Shown in pieces: positions 5,037-49,559 of a DNA stretch of 64,000 nt. Numbering within the stretch: the stretch's first letter is position 1; the number at the start of each line of letters is the position of its first letter. The notes beneath the pieces were generated by a model. It was not told where the DNA came from. It was given only the letters and a program-made list of their open reading frames with translations, and made no database searches. The stretch comes from Smithellaceae bacterium (lineage in GTDB: Bacteria > Desulfobacterota > Syntrophia > Syntrophales > Smithellaceae). The position numbers were made by a program, and so were the translations under genes. The stretch spans positions 1 through 64,000 of the forward strand of contig JAUYFM010000024.1 in assembly GCA_030690945.1 (NCBI GenBank). Direction: 5' to 3'.

Positions 5037-5738
5037 ATGGAACAGGATCGGCATTTGATTGAAATTCGGGGCATCGGGAAAACTTACCAGGCGGGAGACA
5101 CTCTCGTCCAGGCAATTCGAGAGATGGATTTTTATGTTGATGAAGGCGAATTTGTAGGCATCATGGGGCAGTCCGGCTCCGGAAAAAGCACATTGCTGTC
5201 CATCATCGGCGGACTCAACCACCCTACGAAAGGCAGCGTCTGCGTGGACACCCTTGATATTTATAGCCTCACCACTGAGCAACGGGCGGACTTCCGCAGT
5301 GAATATCTGGGCATTATTTTTCAATCCTTTCAGCTTATCCCTTACCTTACAGTTTTGGAAAACGTGAAATTGCCTATGGCTGTTACCGGCATCAAAGATA
5401 ACGAGCAGCAAAAAAGAGCGCTGCAAATTCTGGAACGTGTCGGGCTGGCGAATAAAGCCAGGCGCCTTCCGGACCAGCTTTCTGGAGGGGAGCAGGAACG
5501 GGTGGCCATTGCCCGGGCTATTGTCAATCAGCCCCCCATTCTGCTTGCCGACGAACCGACAGGAAACCTGGACAGCGAAACCGCGGAAGGTGTTATGGGT
5601 TTGTTAACCACTTTGAATGGCGAGGGGCAGACAATTATCATGGTGACTCATAACCCCGGCATGACCCGTTTTGCACCGCGGACGATCCATGTCAGGGATG
5701 GGTTGGTAGTTCTCGATGAAACCGGCAGCAGAAATTAA
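5037..5738 (+). CDS. ABC transporter ATP-binding protein, LolD/MacB type
   Basis: 233 aa nucleotide-binding domain. Walker A is GQSGSGKST, the Q loop lies in IIFQSFQLIPYLTVLEN, the signature motif is LSGGEQERVAIARA, Walker B is PILLADEPTGNLD and the switch histidine is in VTHN. The 'NLD' after Walker B and the spacing place it with the LolD/MacB/FtsE ATPases that partner FtsX-type permeases. Last full gene of the sigma-54-controlled operon starting at 2964. SD GGAG at 5028-5031. Energises the permease encoded just upstream; the substrate is unknown. Confidence 0.9.
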   Translation: MEQDRHLIEIRGIGKTYQAGDTLVQAIREMDFYVDEGEFVGIMGQSGSGKSTLLSIIGGLNHPTKGSVCVDTLDIYSLTTEQRADFRSEYLGIIFQSFQLIPYLTVLENVKLPMAVTGIKDNEQQKRALQILERVGLANKARRLPDQLSGGEQERVAIARAIVNQPPILLADEPTGNLDSETAEGVMGLLTTLNGEGQTIIMVTHNPGMTRFAPRTIHVRDGLVVLDETGSRN

Positions 5739-5740
5739 TC

Positions 5741-5803
5741 ATGAAGAAAATCCTTGTTATTGATGTTGACCATTCCTACCGGCGTGTATTGTCTTATCCT
5801 TAA
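5741..5803 (+). pseudogene. Remnant of a response-regulator N-terminus (20 codons)
   Basis: Two bases after the ATPase stop, ATG opens a frame MKKILVIDVDHSYRRVLSYP that meets TAA at 5801. It closely parallels the first 20 residues of the NtrC-like regulator at 1340 (KILIIDDDASFRRILEYN): the beta-1 strand and acidic pocket of a receiver domain. No continuation is seen in any frame before the next promoter. Most likely a truncated duplicate of a receiver gene whose downstream control region, with the activator dyads, was kept. It could also be translated as a short peptide. Confidence 0.6.
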
Positions 5804-5808
5804 CGGAC

Positions 5809-5844
5809 TGGAGAATATTCATCTGTAATGTAGACTATTCTACA
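5809..5844 (+). promoter_or_regulatory. Paired activator-binding dyads upstream of cueP
   Basis: A perfect dyad TGTAGACTATTCTACA (5829-5844) is accompanied by a weaker match TGGAGAATATTCATCT (5809-5824; 11 of 16 positions agree). The centres are 20 bp apart, the same phasing as the pair at 2727-2762. They lie about 50-90 bp upstream of the sigma-54 promoter at 5895. Probably bound by the NtrC-type regulator encoded at 1340. Confidence 0.68.
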
Positions 5845-5894
5845 GTTTAGCGTTCTGCCTAATAAAATAGTTAATAATTACAATATATTAAATT

Positions 5895-5909
5895 TGGCAC
5901 GCCATTTGT
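5895..5909 (+). promoter_or_regulatory. Sigma-54 (-24/-12) promoter of the CueP-like gene
   Basis: TGGCACG-N4-TTGT with GG at 5896-5897 and the -12 G at 5908 (10-bp spacing). The -24 element is a perfect consensus match. The expected start site is about 5921, leaving a leader of roughly 75 nt before the CueP-like gene at 5995. Confidence 0.82.
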
Positions 5910-5994
5910 ATTACAGCTTATATTGTTTGGCAAATGAAACGGATCAAGTTTTGTTCGGACAATTTATACAATAGGATTTAAAAGGGGAAAAACA

Positions 5995-6588
5995 ATGCCT
6001 AATCAAAGAAAAAAAACACAATGGATTATCGTGTTGGCCATTTTTATGACCTTGGTGTCCGGTCTGGCCGTAGCCCAGCACAATCATGATCATGGTGCAA
6101 TGCCGACCGCCAACAGTCAGGATCAGAAGTTATTGAATGAGCTCAAAGGTATAGACGGCAAGCAGGCAATGGAACTTGCCAATAGATGGCGGCAAAAGAA
6201 TCTTGATATTACCAGTTTCGTGACTCCGGATGCGGTCAATTTTAAGTTCAAAGATGGCAAAACTATCGGTGTGCCTCTGCCGGATGATCAAATGGTTGTA
6301 TCCATCGCTCCATACATCAACAAAACGCATGAATGTGCGACGCATTACATGTCCAAATGCGATGCGGAACTGAAAAACGTGCCTGTAAAAGTTCTGGCCA
6401 TCAACGCGGGAGGCAAAACGCTGATTAATAAAACCATTAAAACATCTTCTACCGGTTTTTTTGATCTCTGGTTACCGCGAGATCGGGAAATTACTGTATC
6501 AGTAAGTGCCCAGGGGAAGAAAGCAACGGGCAAGGTATACACTTACCGGAACAGCAAGACATGCGACACGACACTTAAATTGGAATAG
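5995..6588 (+). CDS. cueP: CueP-like periplasmic copper-binding protein
   Basis: 197 aa with a signal peptide (hydrophobic 11-26, cleavage near AVA-QH). A short His-rich stretch HNHDHG opens the mature protein. The rest matches the CueP family: SIAPYINKTHEC-ATHYMSKC, the FFDLWLPRDREITVSV strand segment and the C-terminal KTCDTTLKLE. The three cysteines sit where CueP of Salmonella has its conserved copper/redox cysteines. CueP binds periplasmic copper and supplies or buffers it under anaerobic copper stress. Here it has its own sigma-54 promoter, unlike Salmonella where CueR controls it. A second His-rich exported protein follows 58 bp downstream. SD AAAGGGG at 5980-5986. Confidence 0.85.
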   Translation: MPNQRKKTQWIIVLAIFMTLVSGLAVAQHNHDHGAMPTANSQDQKLLNELKGIDGKQAMELANRWRQKNLDITSFVTPDAVNFKFKDGKTIGVPLPDDQMVVSIAPYINKTHECATHYMSKCDAELKNVPVKVLAINAGGKTLINKTIKTSSTGFFDLWLPRDREITVSVSAQGKKATGKVYTYRNSKTCDTTLKLE

Positions 6589-10264: not shown

Positions 10265-13200
10265 ATGATCGCCAAAATAATCGAATTTTCCGCCCGGAAT
10301 AAATTCGCCGTATTTCTGATGATGGCCCTGGCCATTATCTGGGGTATTTGGGCTTTGAAGAACACCCCACTGGACGCTCTTCCGGACCTGAGTGATACAC
10401 AAGTGATCATTTATACGGAATGGACGGGACGCAGCCCCGATCTGGTGGAAGATCAGATTACTTATCCGATCACCTCCACATTGCTGGCGGCACCGAAAGT
10501 ACAGGCCGTGCGTGGCTATTCATTTTTAGGCAGTTCCTTCATCTACGTTATTTTTGAAGAGGGAACGGATATCTATTGGGCCAGAAGCCGTATTCTGGAA
10601 TACCTTCAGGCTGTGAAAAATAAAATACCGGCCGATGTCAACCCGGTTCTCGGCCCCGACGCCACCAGTCTGGGATGGGGTTTTTCCTATGCTGTTGTCG
10701 ATGAAACCGGCGGGCACGATCTTTCCGAACTGCGGAGCATCCAAGACTACCTCATCAAACTTGGTCTAGAAAGCGTACCCGGCGTTTCCCAGGTGGCCAG
10801 TATCGGCGGCTTTGTAAAGCAGTATCAGATAACCATCGATCCCAACCGCCTGACAGCCTACAATATTCCCATTACGAAGGTTATGGAGGCCGTCAAAAAA
10901 AGTAACCGGGATGTAGAAGGACGCGTTCTGGAATTATCCGGCGTGGAATACATGATCCGGGGGCGGGGATACGTCAAGGGGCTTCAGGACCTGGAGAGCA
11001 TCGCCGTGGGCGCAAGCACAGGCGGAACACCCATCTATTTAAAGGATGTGGCCCGTATTCAACTGGGGCCGGAAATCCGCAGAGGGCTTGCGGAATTGGA
11101 CGGCAAGGGAGAAGTTGCCGGTGGCATCGTGATTGTCCGTTCCGGTGAAAACGTTTTAAATGTGATCGAACGGGTTAAGGAAAAGATCAACAAGGACATT
11201 GCGCCCAGTCTTCCCAAAGGCGTGAAAATAGTCACCACCTATGACCGTTCGGATCTCATTATGCGATCCATGTCCACTCTTAAAGAGGAGATCATCAAGC
11301 TGCTCATAGCGGTGAGTGTGGTCTGTCTGGTTTTTCTTTTTCACTTTCCCAGTGCCCTGGTGATCATCCTCACGCTGCCCATCGCTATCATTATGGCCTT
11401 CATCAGCATGTATTACCTGGGTGTTACCTCTAACGTCATGAGCCTCTCGGGTATTGCTATCGCCATCGGCGCCATGGTGGACGCTGCCATTATCATGGTG
11501 GAAAATGCGCATAAGAAGCTCGAAGAGTGGGAACATCAGGGGAAACCGGGGAACCGGGTAGACGTCATTATCGAAGCAGCCAAGGAAGTGGGCCCGTCGC
11601 TTTTCTTTGCGCTTCTCGTCATTACCGTGGCATTCCTCCCTGTCTTCACCCTTCAGGCCCAGGCAGGGCGTCTCTTCAAGCCCCTGGCTTACACGAAGAC
11701 TTTTGCCATGCTCTTTTCGTCTTTCCTTGCTGTCACGTTAACACCGGTGCTGATGACACTGTTTATCCGCGGCAAAATCCGTTCTGAAGAGAAGAATCCC
11801 ATCAGTCGCGTCCTGCACAAGGTCTATGAACCGGTCGCCCGCTTTGCTATTCGTTTTCGGAAAACAGTAATCGTTGCAGCCCTGATCATCATGGCCATCA
11901 CGGTCTATCCTTTCATGAAACTGGGTTCTGAGTTTATGCCGCCACTTTACGAAGGAACGTTGTTTTATATGCCGGTCACGGTACCCGGAGCGTCCGTGTC
12001 CGAAGTCGGTACACTCCTCCAGCTGCAGGACAGCATTCTGAAAAAAATCCCCGAGGTTGCCCAGGTCTTTGGCAAGGCCGGGCGGGCGGAGACGGCCACA
12101 GACCCGGCGCCCCTGGAGATGTTCGAGACGACTATTAATCTGAAGCCGGAAGATCAGTGGCGTCCCGGTATGACTACGGAAAAACTGAAGGACGAGATGA
12201 ATGATGCCCTCACTATCCCCGGTGTGGCCAACTCCTTTACAATGCCCATCAAGGCCCGCATCGATATGCTGGCTACGGGCATCCGGACTCCCGTCGGAAT
12301 TAAGATTCTTGGTCCGAATATTGAGGAAATTGAAAAAATTGGTTTGGCTCTGGAACATCATTTAAAAGACGTCCCCGGAACAAGGAGTGTTTACGCAGAG
12401 CGGGTAACAACGGGTTACTTCCTTGATATCGCCATCAAGCGCGATGAGGCTGCCCGGTATGGCCTCACGGTGGATGATGTGGGCGAGATCGTCCAGACGG
12501 CCATCGGGGGAATGAATCTGACCACAACCGTTGAAGGACGGGCGCGCTATCCGGTGAATATCCGGTATCCCCGGAATTTGCGCAGCGATGTGGAGCAGAT
12601 GAAACGGATTCTTGTGCCGGTTATGATGCCTAATCGTACTGCGGCGGCGGCTCCGGGCGGCATGGCTGCAATCCAGCAGATTACGCAGATTCCATTGGGT
12701 GAAGTGGCGGATTTCAAAATCGTCAAGGGCCCCACGGCCATCAAAAGTGAAGAAGGACTTCTGACCGCTTATGTCTTCGTTGATATTACCGGGCGTGATC
12801 TGGGCGGCTATGTGGAGGAGGCAAAGAAAAAAGTATCGACGTTGAAGATTCCCGAAGGCTATAGGCTCACCTGGAGCGGGGAATATGAAAATCTGACGAA
12901 GACCCATGAGCGGTTGAAAATGGTCATTCCTCTGACCCTTTTTCTCATCTTTGTTCTCATATACCTGAACACAAGATCAACGGTCAAAACAATGATTGTC
13001 CTTCTTGCCGTGCCTTTTTCGCTGGTCGGTTCTTTCTGGCTGCTGTACATACTCAACTACAACATGAGTATTGCAGTATGGGTCGGGATCATCGCACTCG
13101 CGGGCCTTGATGCGGAGACAGGTGTGGTCATGCTCCTGTATCTTGATCTGGCTTATGAAAAGTGGAAGAAGGACGGCAAGCTTACAACGAAAAGCGATTT

Positions 13201-13435
13201 ACGGGATGCCATCATGTACGGCGCTGTCAAGCGTATTCGTCCGAAGATTATGACGGTGAGTGTTATCCTGGCAGGACTTATCCCCATCATGTTCAGCCAC
13301 GGAACGGGTGCGGATATCATGAAACGTATTGCCGCCCCCATGATCGGCGGCGTCATTACGTCCACAATTTTGGAGTTGCTTATTTATCCGGCGATTTACA
13401 TGATCTGGCGGAGCCGTAGTTTGAAAAAAGCTTAA
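10265..13435 (+). CDS. cusA: Heavy-metal RND transporter, CusA-type (Cu(I)/Ag(I))
   Basis: 1056 aa, the usual length for HME-RND pumps, with 12 membrane helices and two periplasmic loops. The helix-4 segment AIAIGAMVDAAIIMVENAHKKLEEW is the CusA-like version of the proton-relay region. The three methionines that form the Cu(I)/Ag(I) site in E. coli CusA lie in corresponding contexts here: YMPVTVPG, RPGMTTEK and RIDMLATGI. This points to monovalent copper/silver rather than Co/Zn/Cd. Last gene of the operon and 17 bp after the adaptor. Together with the channel and adaptor it forms a complete CusCBA-type pump; no CusF-like chaperone is evident, though the YtkA-like protein may substitute. Confidence 0.93.
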   Translation: MIAKIIEFSARNKFAVFLMMALAIIWGIWALKNTPLDALPDLSDTQVIIYTEWTGRSPDLVEDQITYPITSTLLAAPKVQAVRGYSFLGSSFIYVIFEEGTDIYWARSRILEYLQAVKNKIPADVNPVLGPDATSLGWGFSYAVVDETGGHDLSELRSIQDYLIKLGLESVPGVSQVASIGGFVKQYQITIDPNRLTAYNIPITKVMEAVKKSNRDVEGRVLELSGVEYMIRGRGYVKGLQDLESIAVGASTGGTPIYLKDVARIQLGPEIRRGLAELDGKGEVAGGIVIVRSGENVLNVIERVKEKINKDIAPSLPKGVKIVTTYDRSDLIMRSMSTLKEEIIKLLIAVSVVCLVFLFHFPSALVIILTLPIAIIMAFISMYYLGVTSNVMSLSGIAIAIGAMVDAAIIMVENAHKKLEEWEHQGKPGNRVDVIIEAAKEVGPSLFFALLVITVAFLPVFTLQAQAGRLFKPLAYTKTFAMLFSSFLAVTLTPVLMTLFIRGKIRSEEKNPISRVLHKVYEPVARFAIRFRKTVIVAALIIMAITVYPFMKLGSEFMPPLYEGTLFYMPVTVPGASVSEVGTLLQLQDSILKKIPEVAQVFGKAGRAETATDPAPLEMFETTINLKPEDQWRPGMTTEKLKDEMNDALTIPGVANSFTMPIKARIDMLATGIRTPVGIKILGPNIEEIEKIGLALEHHLKDVPGTRSVYAERVTTGYFLDIAIKRDEAARYGLTVDDVGEIVQTAIGGMNLTTTVEGRARYPVNIRYPRNLRSDVEQMKRILVPVMMPNRTAAAAPGGMAAIQQITQIPLGEVADFKIVKGPTAIKSEEGLLTAYVFVDITGRDLGGYVEEAKKKVSTLKIPEGYRLTWSGEYENLTKTHERLKMVIPLTLFLIFVLIYLNTRSTVKTMIVLLAVPFSLVGSFWLLYILNYNMSIAVWVGIIALAGLDAETGVVMLLYLDLAYEKWKKDGKLTTKSDLRDAIMYGAVKRIRPKIMTVSVILAGLIPIMFSHGTGADIMKRIAAPMIGGVITSTILELLIYPAIYMIWRSRSLKKA

Positions 13436-28638: not shown

Positions 28639-28881
28639 ATGGAAGTAACTTCAAATATATATCATGGTGATAGCAAAGAGGTTTTAAAACAACTTCTGGC
28701 TAATTCTGTTGATCTTATAGTGACATCACCACCTTATGCAGACCAACGAAAAAACACCTATGGTGGCATTCATCCTGATCAATACGTAAAATGGTTTTTG
28801 CCTATTTCAGAACAGCTTTTACGTGTGCTCAAGCCCAAAGAGACCTTTGTTCTCAACTTTAAGGAGAAAGAGTCTATATGA
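28639..28881 (+). pseudogene. Site-specific DNA methyltransferase, N-terminal fragment
   Basis: 80 codons matching the start of an alpha/beta-class DNA methyltransferase of the N4-cytosine/N6-adenine type: NIYHGDSKEVLKQL followed by catalytic motif IV in LIVTSPPYADQR, then LRVLKPKETFVLNFKEK. The remaining ~200 residues, including the C-terminal SAM-binding FxGxG motif I expected for this class, are missing. The frame stops in the overlap with the next gene's ATG, so the loss looks like a deletion rather than a single frameshift. Cannot be an active enzyme alone. The AT-rich base use contrasts with the flanks. Confidence 0.8.
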
Positions 28882-29807
28882 GTTACGAAGCTAAAATGCT
28901 TCAAGATTTGGCTATGCCATCGAGAAAGAAAGTTGAAGAAGCTTTGCTGAAAACTTTGTTTAAACATAATGGTGTAATAAAGGAGTTTGCCACTGGTGAA
29001 GAAATTGTAAATGAAATAGCTGATGAATTTATTTTAAACAAAAATCAGAGAACTGCTGTTTTAGAAAGAATTTATCGTAAAGAAAATCGAATTGTAAAAA
29101 CGCCACTTTGGCATCGTTTACTCTATCGTGCTGCTGATTCGTTAGCAAAAGAAAAATTGGTTTCAAGACCAACATCAACTATTCTTCTGACAAACAAGAA
29201 AGAGTGGATGCTAACTGAAAATGGCATTGATGAGGCCATGAAGATTTTGAATATTCCTAAAACACAAAAAGAATTTCTTCCAACAAAATCCTTTGAAGTT
29301 CAAAGAATTGTAAAGAAGCTTATCGAAGCACCGCGACCCGCAAATTATGATCCATTTGATAAAGAAAAGAAAATTGCAAAGGTTACCAGAGAATTAACAA
29401 TCAGAACAAGAGGTTTTCGTCAAGCGGTTATAGAAGCATATGATTACAAGTGTGCTTTTTGTGGAATGAAAATTCAAACCCCAGATTCTTTATTGTGGGA
29501 AGTTGAAGCTGCACATATTGTTCCTAATAATGAAAAAGGGAAAGATGACATTTTAAATGGATTGTCTTTATGTCATCTGCATCATTGGGCTTTTGATGCT
29601 GGATGGTTCACATTGCAAGATGATTTTAGAATTCAAGTTTCCCCCAAAGTAAATTCTGTACCTTTCGATTTTGGCAGAATGGGAGATTATGATTTCATCA
29701 GAGGATTAGCCAATAAAAATTCGAAAATGCTTCTTCCGAAAAGAAAAGAAATTTATCCTCATCAAAATGCAATTAGTTGGCATCGCGAAAATAAATTTTT
29801 CGCGTAA
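28878..29807 (+). CDS. HNH restriction-type endonuclease with N-terminal winged-helix region
   Basis: 309 aa. Residues about 10-120 resemble the Mrr N-terminal winged-helix domain (VEEALLKTLFKHNGVIKE...LLTNKKEWMLTENGIDEAMK). The C-terminal half is an HNH nuclease of the HNH_2 kind: zinc-knuckle CAFCGMKI, VEAAHIVPNNEKGKDDILNGLSLCHLHHWAFDAGWFTL. Its start overlaps the truncated methyltransferase, so it probably belonged to a type II restriction system whose methyltransferase has since been damaged. A nuclease without its methyltransferase would be harmful unless silent or protected from elsewhere. AT-rich, signs of transfer. Confidence 0.8.
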   Translation: MSYEAKMLQDLAMPSRKKVEEALLKTLFKHNGVIKEFATGEEIVNEIADEFILNKNQRTAVLERIYRKENRIVKTPLWHRLLYRAADSLAKEKLVSRPTSTILLTNKKEWMLTENGIDEAMKILNIPKTQKEFLPTKSFEVQRIVKKLIEAPRPANYDPFDKEKKIAKVTRELTIRTRGFRQAVIEAYDYKCAFCGMKIQTPDSLLWEVEAAHIVPNNEKGKDDILNGLSLCHLHHWAFDAGWFTLQDDFRIQVSPKVNSVPFDFGRMGDYDFIRGLANKNSKMLLPKRKEIYPHQNAISWHRENKFFA

Positions 29808-45088: not shown

Positions 45089-45934
45089 TTAGTTGTCCGG
45101 CTTTAAATACGGCAGCGCCAGTTGCACTTTTTTGAGCGCCTGCTTTTCAATCTGACGGGCGCGTTCGCGAGTGATGTTGTATTTGTCGCCGATTTCTTGG
45201 AGTGTCAGCGGGTCATCCGCCATAACGCGGTGCTGAATGATGTAGCTTTCCCGCTCATTGAGTTTGGCCAGGGCGCCGGCAATATCGCGCTTGACCAGGC
45301 TTCGTTCTTCGTGCTTGATCAAGGATACTTCCTGATTGTCGCCGTCATGCGTGAGAAAATCAAGATGGGACGTGTCGCCGTCGTCGTTGATGAATTCATT
45401 GAGCGACAGATCGCGCGTGCCCATGCGCAAATCCATTTCCGCGACCTCTGAACCTTTCACACCAAGAGATTCAGCGATTTCACTGAATTCGGGATTCTTC
45501 TTCGATATCGTCTCCAGTTGCTTTTTGGCTTGGCTTAATTTAAAAAACAGTTTTCTTTGCGCCTGCGTTGTGCCGATTTTGACGATACTCCACGACTTGA
45601 TCAGATAATTCTGAATATAGGCGCGAATCCACCAGACTGCATAAGAGATCAGACGGTAGCCTTTATAAGGATCGAATTTTTTCACGGCGTGAATCAGGCC
45701 GATATTGCCTTCCTGGATCAAGTCGGCCAGCTTGAAGCCATAATTGCGGTATTCGTGGGCGATCTTGACGACAAAGCGCAGATTGGAAACAATCAGCTTT
45801 TCCGCTGCTTCCATGTCATTATACTTCTTGAGACGCACGGCCAGCTTGAATTCTTCCTCTGGCGTTAAAAGCGGGAAACGGTTAATTTCTGTGATGTATA
45901 AGTCAAGCGTGCCGGTGACGACGGGTAACTTCAA
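45089..45934 (-). CDS. rpoH: RNA polymerase sigma factor RpoH (heat-shock sigma-32)
   Basis: 281 aa. Region 2 (LRFVVKIAHEYRNYGFKLADLIQEGNIGLIHAVKKFDPYKGYRLISYAVWWIRAYIQNYLI) and region 4 (LTLQEIGDKYNITRERARQIEKQALKKV) are typical. The RpoH box QRKLFFKLSQAKKQL identifies it as the heat-shock factor rather than the primary sigma. TTG start with GGAG upstream; an in-frame stop precedes it, so no ATG alternative exists. Divergent from the DacZ-like gene and clpB, the latter a classical RpoH target. Confidence 0.92.
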   Translation of the reverse strand: MKLPVVTGTLDLYITEINRFPLLTPEEEFKLAVRLKKYNDMEAAEKLIVSNLRFVVKIAHEYRNYGFKLADLIQEGNIGLIHAVKKFDPYKGYRLISYAVWWIRAYIQNYLIKSWSIVKIGTTQAQRKLFFKLSQAKKQLETISKKNPEFSEIAESLGVKGSEVAEMDLRMGTRDLSLNEFINDDGDTSHLDFLTHDGDNQEVSLIKHEERSLVKRDIAGALAKLNERESYIIQHRVMADDPLTLQEIGDKYNITRERARQIEKQALKKVQLALPYLKPDN

Positions 45935-45998: not shown

Positions 45999-46016
45999 GC
46001 AAATAATTTCCACTTC

Positions 46017-46045
46017 TTGACAGGCACACCATTAATGTTTATTCT
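46017..46045 (+). promoter_or_regulatory. Candidate promoter of the diadenylate cyclase-clpB operon
   Basis: TTGACA (46017-46022), 17-bp spacer, TATTCT (46040-46045). The preceding C gives CTTGACA, which partly resembles a heat-shock -35 box, but the CCCCAT-type -10 is absent. About 20 nt leader to ATG 46073. Confidence 0.55.
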
Positions 46046-46072: not shown

Positions 46073-46945
46073 ATGAAATCCGTTAATAAGACGATGATTG
46101 AATCAGCCATCAAACTGGCCAAAGAGGTCAAAGCAGGTTGTGTTCTGGTGTGCGTGGATGTAAAAAGTGAACTGGCCGAGTTGCCGGAAGACATCAAGAC
46201 CGCTGTTAACTTTGTTCTTGTCATGCGAGAGGATGAAGATTTGCCGGAGAAACTCGCAAATTACGTAAAAAAATTGGATATTCCTAGTGTGAATTTAACC
46301 CGGGTGGGTAAGATCAAAATTGCGATTGCCAAGGGCATCGTTTCCGGACTGTTTAAAAAAGGGGACAAAATCGTTTGCCTGTCCGGCGTGCCGAAGTTCG
46401 GTTATGCCGACAGTATTTTCTTTATCGATGTCGGTCGCGAATTCGAAATCCTAACATCCGATTTCATTAATGATGTCGTAGAGGCTATACAGCCGGAGGT
46501 TTTCAACGCGGCATTGAACATCGCCTGTGAATTGGCCGCGCAGGGACGTGAAAACCGGAAGGTCGGAACGATCTTTGTGCTCGGGGATGATGAAAAAGTT
46601 TTGCAGCTTTCCCGGCAGATGATTATGAATCCGTTTTCCGGCTATCCAGAAGACGAGCGTAATATTTTGAATCCGGATCTGGAAGAAACAATCAAGGAAT
46701 TTTCCGCTATTGACGGCGCGTTTATCATCAAGGGAAGCGGCGTAATTGTTACGGCCGGAAGGCATTTGAGCGCTGCGCTGGAAAGCAAGGATTTTCCGCC
46801 GGGACTGGGCAGCCGCCATATTGCCGCGGCAGGCATTACCAATGTGACCAAGGCTGTTGCCATGGTTATTTCCGAATCTTCGGGAAATGTCAGCGTCTTC
46901 AAAAACGGCAAGCTGTTTGTGACGATTGAAAAACCAGTAGAGTAG
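46073..46945 (+). CDS. Diadenylate cyclase, DacZ-like (PK_C plus DAC domains)
   Basis: 290 aa. The N-terminal ~130 residues form an alpha/beta domain like the pyruvate-kinase C-terminal fold (MIESAIKLAKEVKAGCVLVCVDV...GIVSGLFKKGDKIVCLSG). The C-terminal part is a DAC domain: DGAFIIKGSGVIVTAGRHLSAAL (DGA 214-216) and GSRHIAAAGITNVTKAVAMVISESSGNVSVFKNGKL. The arrangement is that of archaeal DacZ rather than CdaA or DisA. The catalytic RHR motif reads RHI (248-250). Would make cyclic di-AMP from two ATP. Co-directional with clpB, 13 bp upstream of it, so perhaps tied to stress. Activity must be tested because of the altered motif. Confidence 0.78.
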   Translation: MKSVNKTMIESAIKLAKEVKAGCVLVCVDVKSELAELPEDIKTAVNFVLVMREDEDLPEKLANYVKKLDIPSVNLTRVGKIKIAIAKGIVSGLFKKGDKIVCLSGVPKFGYADSIFFIDVGREFEILTSDFINDVVEAIQPEVFNAALNIACELAAQGRENRKVGTIFVLGDDEKVLQLSRQMIMNPFSGYPEDERNILNPDLEETIKEFSAIDGAFIIKGSGVIVTAGRHLSAALESKDFPPGLGSRHIAAAGITNVTKAVAMVISESSGNVSVFKNGKLFVTIEKPVE

Positions 46946-46958
46946 AACGAGGTAAACG

Positions 46959-49559
46959 ATGAGATTTGATAAATTCACATTAAAAGTACAGGAAGCGCTT
47001 CAGGATGCGCAGTCGCTGGCGGGCTCTCTGGGCCACCAGACTGTTGAGCCGGAACATCTTCTTGTTTGTTTTTTGCGGCAGGAAGACGGCATTGCCGGCG
47101 CTATTCTGAATAAACTGAACGCTTCACCCCAGAAGGCGGAGCAGGAACTTAATGGTTATCTGAAAAAGCAGCCGAGCATTCAGGGCGCTGGCGCGGGACA
47201 GGTTTTTTTAGGTGGCAGGCTCAATAAAATTTTCGATAAAGCTCTGACCGAAGCGGCGCAGCTCAAGGACGAATACGTCAGCGCCGAACATGTGCTGATT
47301 GCCATTGCCGAAGAAAAGGAAGGCCATGCTGGTAAAATCCTGCGTCAGGAGGGTGTGACCAAAGAGAATATCTTTAAAGTGCTGGTGGATATCCGCGGCA
47401 ACCAACGTGTGACCGATCCGAATCCCGAGGGCAAGTACCAGGCCCTCGAACGCTATGCCAGGGATTTTAATGAACTGGCGCGTAAAGGGACATTCGATCC
47501 GGTTATCGGCCGGGACGAGGAAATCCGACGCATTATGCAGGTGCTCTCGCGGCGCACGAAAAATAACCCGGTGCTCATCGGCGAGCCGGGTGTCGGCAAG
47601 ACGGCCATTGTGGAAGGTCTCGCCCAACGCATCGTCAATGGCGACGTGCCGGAAAATCTCAAAAACAAGCGCGTGATTGGTCTGGACATCGGTGCTTTGA
47701 TCGCGGGCGCGAAATACCGTGGTGAATTTGAAGAGCGCCTGAAGGCGGTGTTAAAGGAAGTTGTCAGTTCCGAAGGCGAGATTATTCTCTTTATTGATGA
47801 AATTCATACCGTTGTCGGTGCGGGCGCGGCCGAAGGTTCCATGGACGCCTCCAACATGCTCAAGCCGGCGCTGGCACGCGGTGAGCTGCGCTGTGTCGGA
47901 GCGACCACGCTTAACGAATACCGCAAATACATCGAAAAGGATGCGGCGCTGGAAAGGCGTTTCCAGCCGGTTTTAGTCAAGGAACCGACGGTGGAAGATA
48001 CGATTGCCATTCTGCGCGGGCTCAAGGAGCGCTACGAAGTGCATCACGGCGTGCGGATAAAGGATTCGGCCATTATTGCCGCGGCAACTCTTTCCCATCG
48101 TTATATCGCCGACAGGTTTTTGCCGGACAAGGCGGTGGATCTGATTGACGAGGCCGCGTCGCGCCTGAGGATCGAGCTTGACAGCATGCCTTTGGAGATC
48201 GACACGATTGACAGGAAAATCATTCAACTGGAAATTGAAAAACAGTCGTTGAAAAAGGAAACAGACAAAACCGCCAAGGAAAGGCGCGACAAAATTGAAA
48301 AGGAACTGGCCGAGTTGAAGTCCAGTATGGATCAGATGAAGATACACTGGTCGGCTGAAAAGGACATTATCAAAAAGATTCAACAAATCAAGAGCCAGAT
48401 GGAATCGCTGAAAACGGAGGAGGCGAACGCCCAACGCCAGGGTGATCTGGCGAAGGCCGCGGAAATCCGCTATGGCAAACTGGTGGCGCTGGATCACGAA
48501 CTGCAGGAAGATCAGAAAAAGCTGGAGGATGTTCAGAAAAATAATCAGATGCTCAAAGAAGAGGTGGATGCCGAAGATGTGGCGGAAGTCGTCGCGAACT
48601 GGACGGGCATTCCTTTGGCGCGTATGATGGAAAGTGACGTGCAGAAACTCATTCACATGGATGAGCGGCTCCGGATGCGCGTGATCGGTCAGGACGAAGG
48701 CATTGGGGCTGTGTCCGCTGCGCTCAGGCGCGCGCGTTCCGGCCTGCAGGACCCCAATCGTCCCATCGGATCGTTTATTTTTTTGGGGCCGACCGGTATC
48801 GGTAAAACGGAACTGGCCCGTGCTCTGGCCGAATTCATGTTTGATAATGAGCAGGCCATGATCCGCATTGATATGTCGGAGTATATGGAAAAGCATTCGG
48901 TCGCGCGTTTGATCGGCGCTCCGCCCGGCTATGTCGGTTATGATGAGGGCGGTTATCTCACGGAAGCCGTCCGGCGCAAACCCTATTGTGTCCTGCTTTT
49001 TGATGAAATTGAAAAAGCGCATCCGGATGTGTTCAATATTTTACTCCAGATTCTGGATGATGGACGGCTCACCGACGGTCACGGCCGCACCGTGGATTTC
49101 AAAAACACCGTGGTAATCATGACCTCTAACGTTGGCAGCCAGTGGATTCAGGATCCGGCTCTTGATGAAGAAGACAAGAAGGCCCGTTCGATGGACGCGT
49201 TGCGGGCGACGTTCAAACCGGAATTTTTAAACCGCATAGACGACATGATCATGTTCTCCACCTTGAAATTGGAAGATATTTATAAAATCGTCGATATTCA
49301 ATTGGGGTTGATTGGTAAGAGACTCAAAGATCGCAAATTGAGCGTCGAATTGACAGATGCGGCTAAGAAATATATAGCCGAGCAGGGCTACAGTCCGGTT
49401 TACGGAGCACGGCCGCTTAAACGGGCACTGCAGAAAATCATTTTGGATCCGCTGGCGCTCGATATTCTGGCCGGAAAATTCACAGAAGGAGAGCATATCG
49501 TCATTGGCGCATCCAAAGGCGAGATTACTTTTAGTAAAAAAGGTGGAGCCACACTGTAG
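46959..49559 (+). CDS. clpB: ATP-dependent chaperone ClpB
   Basis: 866 aa disaggregase. N-domain double repeat ([30 protein letters not shown]...), first AAA+ module ([28 protein letters not shown]), the ClpB-specific coiled-coil middle domain (about 410-530, rich in Lys/Glu/Gln), and second AAA+ module ([44 protein letters not shown]). A C-terminal ClpB_D2-small domain follows. Works with DnaK to rescue aggregates. Probably co-transcribed with the diadenylate cyclase. Confidence 0.96.

Follow-up and report, generated by a model that had tools for sequence, protein, structure and literature searches.

The locus we investigated raises two questions: why a gene for a diadenylate cyclase of the DacZ type should stand between rpoH and clpB in a bacterium, and whether its product is likely to make cyclic di-AMP (c-di-AMP), a messenger whose established roles lie mostly in the control of potassium, osmotic balance and the cell wall of Gram-positive bacteria. 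The gene lies in a stretch of 64,000 nucleotides from a Smithellaceae bacterium, here called the window. The original prediction held that it encodes a PK_C-like domain joined to a DAC domain, that it is divergent from rpoH and immediately upstream of clpB, and that this arrangement links c-di-AMP to protein stress. The genes and domains concerned are as follows.

46073..46945, + strand: dacZ, DacZ-type diadenylate cyclase, 290 aa, ATG start
46073..46435, + strand: PK_C-like fold (DacZ_P), the proposed sensor, residues 1-121, by Pfam and predicted structure
46535..46915, + strand: DAC catalytic domain, residues 155-281, by Pfam and predicted structure
45089..45934, - strand: rpoH (sigma-32), TIGR02392 at 336 bits against a cut-off of 323, divergent, 138 bp from dacZ
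46959..49559, + strand: clpB, TIGR03346 at 1363 bits against a cut-off of 1232, 13 bp after dacZ

These coordinates confirm the predicted placement. Elsewhere in the window we observed a gene with an HNH_2 endonuclease domain (28878-29807, +) and an AcrB-type RND efflux pump (10265-13435, +), which follows ORFs resembling outer-membrane and periplasmic partners and, judged by reading alone, looks like a heavy-metal (Cus-type) efflux system.

The dacZ reading frame is intact, with zero internal stops, and Pfam recognizes both domains in its product: DAC (PF02457) with E 3.5e-23 and 81.9 bits against a cut-off of 27, and DacZ_P (PF21755) at residues 5-128 with E 2.1e-14 and 53.7 bits against a cut-off of 27.4, which places the protein among the bacterial members of that family. 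The PK_C family itself (PF02887) stays below its own cut-off (E 0.012). The full-length AlphaFold model, built from 38 sequences, reached pLDDT 85.9 and pTM 0.85 for the best of five models, the other four having pLDDT values of 66.6-71.8. Its residues 1-126 superpose on residues 347-472 of 5ws9_A, the C-terminal domain of Mycobacterium tuberculosis pyruvate kinase (Z 14.7, rmsd 2.3 over 119), and residues ~139-288 superpose on CdaA and DisA. The N-terminal domain modelled alone had pLDDT 88.1, and among the Foldseek matches listed for it 49 of 50 were titled pyruvate kinase, PKM2 or LPYK; the other was PFF1300w, which we take to be a pyruvate kinase too. A sequence profile of the DacZ family likewise reaches a pyruvate kinase C domain (E 0.023). 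An N-terminus unlike PK_C had been named beforehand as a finding that would count against the prediction; the superposition on 5ws9_A, the Foldseek matches and the profile match all speak for a PK_C-like domain, and the predicted two-domain architecture is borne out. Full-length open relatives exist at 97-44% identity, and dN/dS was 0.05-0.19 in 13/16 full-length comparisons where dS was finite; the reading frame is thus more than a chance one. For the DAC half alone dN/dS was 0.04-0.11 in 15 of the 16 comparisons, the remaining one not being computable.

Whether this protein can act as a cyclase depends on two catalytic motifs, which we compared across 77 distinct DacZ proteins, the window's own included.

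46712..46720, + strand: DGA motif, residues 214-216, invariant in 77/77 proteins
46814..46822, + strand: RHI at the RHR position, residues R248-H249-I250, R and H invariant in all 77, third residue variable

It had been suggested that the replacement of RHR by RHI alters or abolishes activity, and, carried further, that the protein is a degenerate cyclase, a regulator that merely binds nucleotides or a metabolite. Two reports describe RHR as conserved and needed, and the replacement of all three residues by alanine as abolishing activity (PMC3328451; PMC13022847). However, these mutants altered the whole motif, and the third position varies within the family: it is Ile in 56 of the 77 proteins, Arg in 7, Met in 6, Ala in 3, Val in 2 and His, Leu or Thr in one each, and two haloarchaeal DacZ proteins from Haladaptatus read RHH. 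Because the position varies and the published mutants replaced all three residues, an Ile as the third residue does not point to an inactive enzyme, and with DGA and RH never varying and Ile the commonest third residue we rejected RHI as a mark of lost function. Nor does Arg in third place, which the window's protein lacks, define the DacZ_P branch, since so few members have it and the two haloarchaeal proteins carry His. The low dN/dS of the DAC half also argues against a degenerate enzyme, and we consider that explanation very improbable. The suspicion of altered activity was therefore not borne out, and the protein is predicted to be a competent cyclase.

Among known cyclases, the DacZ proteins of archaea offer a close comparison. 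The Haloferax volcanii DacZ is reported to have the same combination of an N-terminal PK_C-like fold and a DAC domain, to be active with Mn only, and to be encoded in an operon with mscS2, whereas the window's dacZ precedes clpB (PMC6741144). CdaZ/DacY of Methanocaldococcus jannaschii is likewise described there as PK_C plus DAC, a likeness that we draw by description only. The two Haladaptatus proteins are ~37-38% identical to the window's DacZ over 60-66% of the query and have DGA and RH in common with it; against the haloarchaeal DacZ model NF041371 it scores 135.7 bits, far under the equivalog cut-off of 430. The prediction that a DacZ occurs in a bacterium was correct as to its presence but overstated as to its novelty: Pfam already has the family, and Braun 2019 (PMC6741144) reports bacterial members of the branch, which makes a bacterial DacZ a known kind of protein.

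The bacterial cyclases CdaA and DisA were compared as well. DAC, DGA and RH are shared with CdaA, both that of the same genome and that of Staphylococcus aureus, whereas the CdaA model TIGR00159 gives the window's DacZ 39.7 bits against a cut-off of 188.8, and its highest 19-residue hydropathy is 1.39 as against 3.09 in its own genome's CdaA, so that it has no strongly hydrophobic stretch. With DisA it shares the DAC fold (Z 13.5-14.6), whereas PRK13482 gives 18.5 bits against a cut-off of 201. DisA carries a DNA-binding part; the window's DacZ has the PK_C-like domain in its place.

The genome (3.15 Mb, completeness 100, contamination 2.98) contains two DAC matches, this DacZ and a CdaA of 483 aa, together with a PgpH-like 7TM-HD protein and three DHH matches, two of them proteins of ~350 aa and one with DHHA1. 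No ydaO riboswitch was found. The CdaA is a single protein encoded at L001 1138-2589 (+), reads RHT at the RHR position, and has a long C-terminal part that presumably is YbbR-like. The best reading of these sequences is that the window's DacZ would be a functional second diadenylate cyclase beside CdaA.

Of 394 genomes of the phylum, 56 carry PF21755, against 0 of 14 control genomes. Among 59 relatives, a set to which the window's own genome belongs, 48 gave a DacZ-type match with E no greater than 1e-95. By their record titles, the 47 named loci come under Smithella, Smithellaceae, Syntrophaceae, Syntrophales and Deltaproteobacteria, with one from Kiritimatiellae (L054); two more distant ones are from Phycisphaerae. 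No DacZ relative was found in viral contigs. The DacZ proteins of Syntrophales form one clade (support 97/94, bootstrap not settled), in a tree that, with just two archaeal rows and many unresolved forks, gives no information on which way transfer went. Two further relatives occur within the order. Genome G012 has a second, divergent DacZ (L153 384-1250, -) that is 43-44% identical, has both domains and has no adjoining clpB. Genome G057, which is without a clpB-linked dacZ, encodes a DAC protein of 220 aa that is related to the catalytic half of DacZ, with no DacZ_P detected (L133 4808-5470, +); its gene directly precedes an hsp20 (5621-6064, +) that bears the promoter motif M described below.

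Is the position of dacZ in front of clpB peculiar to this genome? We collected 57 distinct dacZ loci from Syntrophales, collapsing identical dacZ DNA, keeping only loci of at least 59% identity and taking membership of the order from record titles. In all 57 clpB comes next after dacZ on the same strand, with a gap of at most 41 bp in 45 and of 84-351 bp in 12. A divergent rpoH was seen in 49, 130 bp to 3.4 kb away where its start was whole; among the eight loci in which it was not seen, two (L051, L072) had more than 5 kb upstream. A second fetch, partly from the same genomes, gave clpB next to dacZ in 17 of 20 loci of the order; the exceptions are a locus in which htpX occupies the place of clpB (L142), the paralogue of G012 (L153) and a partial relative (L154). 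For those genomes of the order that showed us no clpB-linked dacZ we compared 20 loci (19 fetched, plus L218); in 17 of them rpoH and clpB are direct divergent neighbours. In the 12 loci whose gap between dacZ and clpB measures 84-351 bp, the last 120 bp ahead of clpB were scanned for a promoter of its own and gave no hit, a weak result because the consensus was an E. coli-like one; one of the gaps holds Ns. In the window, where it begins 13 bp after dacZ, clpB is probably co-transcribed with it. In one member of the genus we also noticed that RpoH (L037 4617-5834, -; also in L013) is interrupted ahead of its last region by a long in-frame insertion, with an apparent partial repeat of region 4.

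The sequence in front of dacZ contains a promoter-like element.

46016..46045, + strand: motif M, CTTGACA-N13-TG-N-TTA-NNN-T, its first base 57 bp before the dacZ ATG

A core of this element,.TTGAC.-N16/17-TANNNT, is present within 250 bp before dacZ in 57/57 loci and within 330 bp before clpB in 17/17 loci without dacZ, and the two kinds of promoter are alike in having CTTGACA followed by RTG and TTA at nearly fixed places. In these loci dacZ thus lies between clpB and its promoter. We also fetched groES and grpE from 18 genomes and found the core before most groES genes. The stricter motif M, CTTGACA-N12/13-TG-N-W-TA-NNN-T, was loosened and fixed after these groES matches had been seen; the hsp20 cases were not foreseen then. 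It is found in 22 of 26 groES loci and in 18/18 genomes, two of the 22 sites lying ~720-770 bp upstream, before an hsp20 that precedes groES, and one genome (G021) being counted only through such an hsp20-groES pair. Across 284 records (2,089,533 bases, overlapping and partly duplicate) all 127 matches, counted within 400 bp upstream, precede one of four genes: dacZ (95), groES (20), clpB (9) and hsp20 (3). All 52 matches in the 669,762 bases of 64 Syntrophales loci lie within 260 bp upstream of dacZ, and the match before dacZ is the only one in the window. There was none in 39 control windows (429,039 bases, taken for the most part from other families within the phylum) and none in eight Markov simulations. 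The exact motif is missing from 11 of 63 dacZ loci (duplicates included), from 4 of 26 groES loci and from 10 of 19 rpoH loci of genomes without a clpB-linked dacZ, and a first, narrower version matched only the dacZ site, and not groES, in the genome of the window. In the locus with htpX in place of clpB the motif still stands in front of dacZ. The genes groES, hsp20 and clpB thus have in common with dacZ the promoter element expected of a chaperone regulon; 0 of 19 grpE loci contain it. The E. coli sigma-32 consensus had no site in the window and one in the genome, equal to the control count, and so does not discriminate as a test. RpoH may be the sigma factor that reads motif M.

The reading that we prefer, with a probability of roughly 0.62, is that the window encodes a soluble, competent DacZ-type cyclase, the second c-di-AMP synthase of the cell, which is driven together with clpB by a chaperone-type promoter under stress. 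A predicted soluble and oligomeric enzyme would form c-di-AMP from two ATP; its PK_C-like domain would probably sense a small metabolite, so that the cyclase works in the right ligand state. If dacZ and clpB are read from a single chaperone-type promoter, probably an RpoH-type one, in the DacZ-bearing Syntrophales, then heat or other protein stress would raise c-di-AMP synthesis together with the ClpB disaggregase, the signal would act on a putative target, and the PgpH-like protein would remove it. With the conserved synteny of dacZ and clpB and the common chaperone-type promoter, the predicted link between c-di-AMP and protein stress has a firmer basis than was originally claimed for it. Among the open-licence publications that our literature searches listed, considered by title and the opening of the abstract, we noticed none on DacZ with ClpB or heat shock.

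The same promoter can also be interpreted without any stress signalling. CTTGACA-N16/17-TANNNT also passes as a sigma-70 promoter (TTGACA-17-TANNNT), and dacZ might serve osmotic or potassium control from a strong promoter of this kind that is common to clpB and groES. The absence of the motif from the grpE loci, the different neighbours of dacZ outside Syntrophales, and the tie between the H. volcanii DacZ and osmoregulation reported in PMC6741144 fit this explanation. Nevertheless, we consider it rather unlikely, given that every motif match precedes dacZ or one of three chaperone genes, that clpB follows dacZ at every one of the 57 loci, and that 6/17 other groups have stress sigma or protein-quality genes in the neighbourhood of dacZ, by a panel chosen after the fact. 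A different possibility is that dacZ was inserted once by chance before clpB and has been kept since its removal would harm clpB expression. The single, if not settled, Syntrophales clade and the rpoH-clpB arrangement without dacZ in several families of the order are compatible with such inherited linkage. However, clpB manages without dacZ in those families, yet dacZ is under purifying selection, and in the htpX-bearing locus the cyclase gene has kept the motif with a different gene behind it. We therefore regard this inherited linkage as unlikely. Cyclase and chaperone being driven together under stress remains our preferred reading.

The loci outside Syntrophales offer a partial comparison. 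Among 41 such dacZ loci none had a ClpB match and motif M was not found at dacZ in the loci examined; of the bacterial DacZ_P genes we examined, only those of Syntrophales precede clpB under motif M. Stress sigma or protein-quality genes were near dacZ in 14/41 loci, against 1/40 control windows, an excess that is suggestive only because the panel of neighbour families was picked after the loci had been seen (two loci, L167 and L169, were judged by tblastn matches only). The one positive control window, L218, comes from G057, a genome of the same order; it has no motif M and was left out of the 39-window motif count. The neighbours differ between groups: rpoH in f31; a sigma gene whose best matches are RpoS models, though under their cut-offs, in f40 and at two f75 loci, with a partial sigma gene at the third f75 locus; degP and ppiC in f82 and f46; and degP alone in f107. 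The largest group, f25 with 12 loci, has no such neighbour, its named neighbours matching ychF and H+-pyrophosphatase clusters, which counts against a general rule of stress-related neighbours.

Some of these clusters have particular arrangements. In f82 and f46 (L119, L123, L128, L132, L160, L161) dacZ is clustered with a PPIC-type rotamase and a DegP/HtrA protease; in L119 an RNase-H-like protein is encoded between the rotamase and dacZ, and a sigma-70 region 4 protein between dacZ and degP. In f40 (L125, L169) dacZ has an RpoS-like sigma gene in front of it, as well as a phosphoribosyltransferase gene that was scanned in L125 only; the sigma frame of L169 is listed as two ORFs.

A wider interpretation would take c-di-AMP in Syntrophales to be a PK_C-gated heat-shock messenger coupled to ClpB, and bacterial DacZ in general to be a stress cyclase that repeatedly came to lie beside stress genes, meaning the sigma factors rpoH and rpoS-like and the protein-quality genes clpB, htpX, degP and ppiC. 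We hold this view, including that list of genes, tentatively and at somewhat less than even odds. If it is true that a c-di-AMP synthase is wired into the chaperone regulon of syntrophic Gram-negative bacteria, then protein stress would be a new input for this messenger, and the role of the bacterial DacZ proteins would become directly testable.
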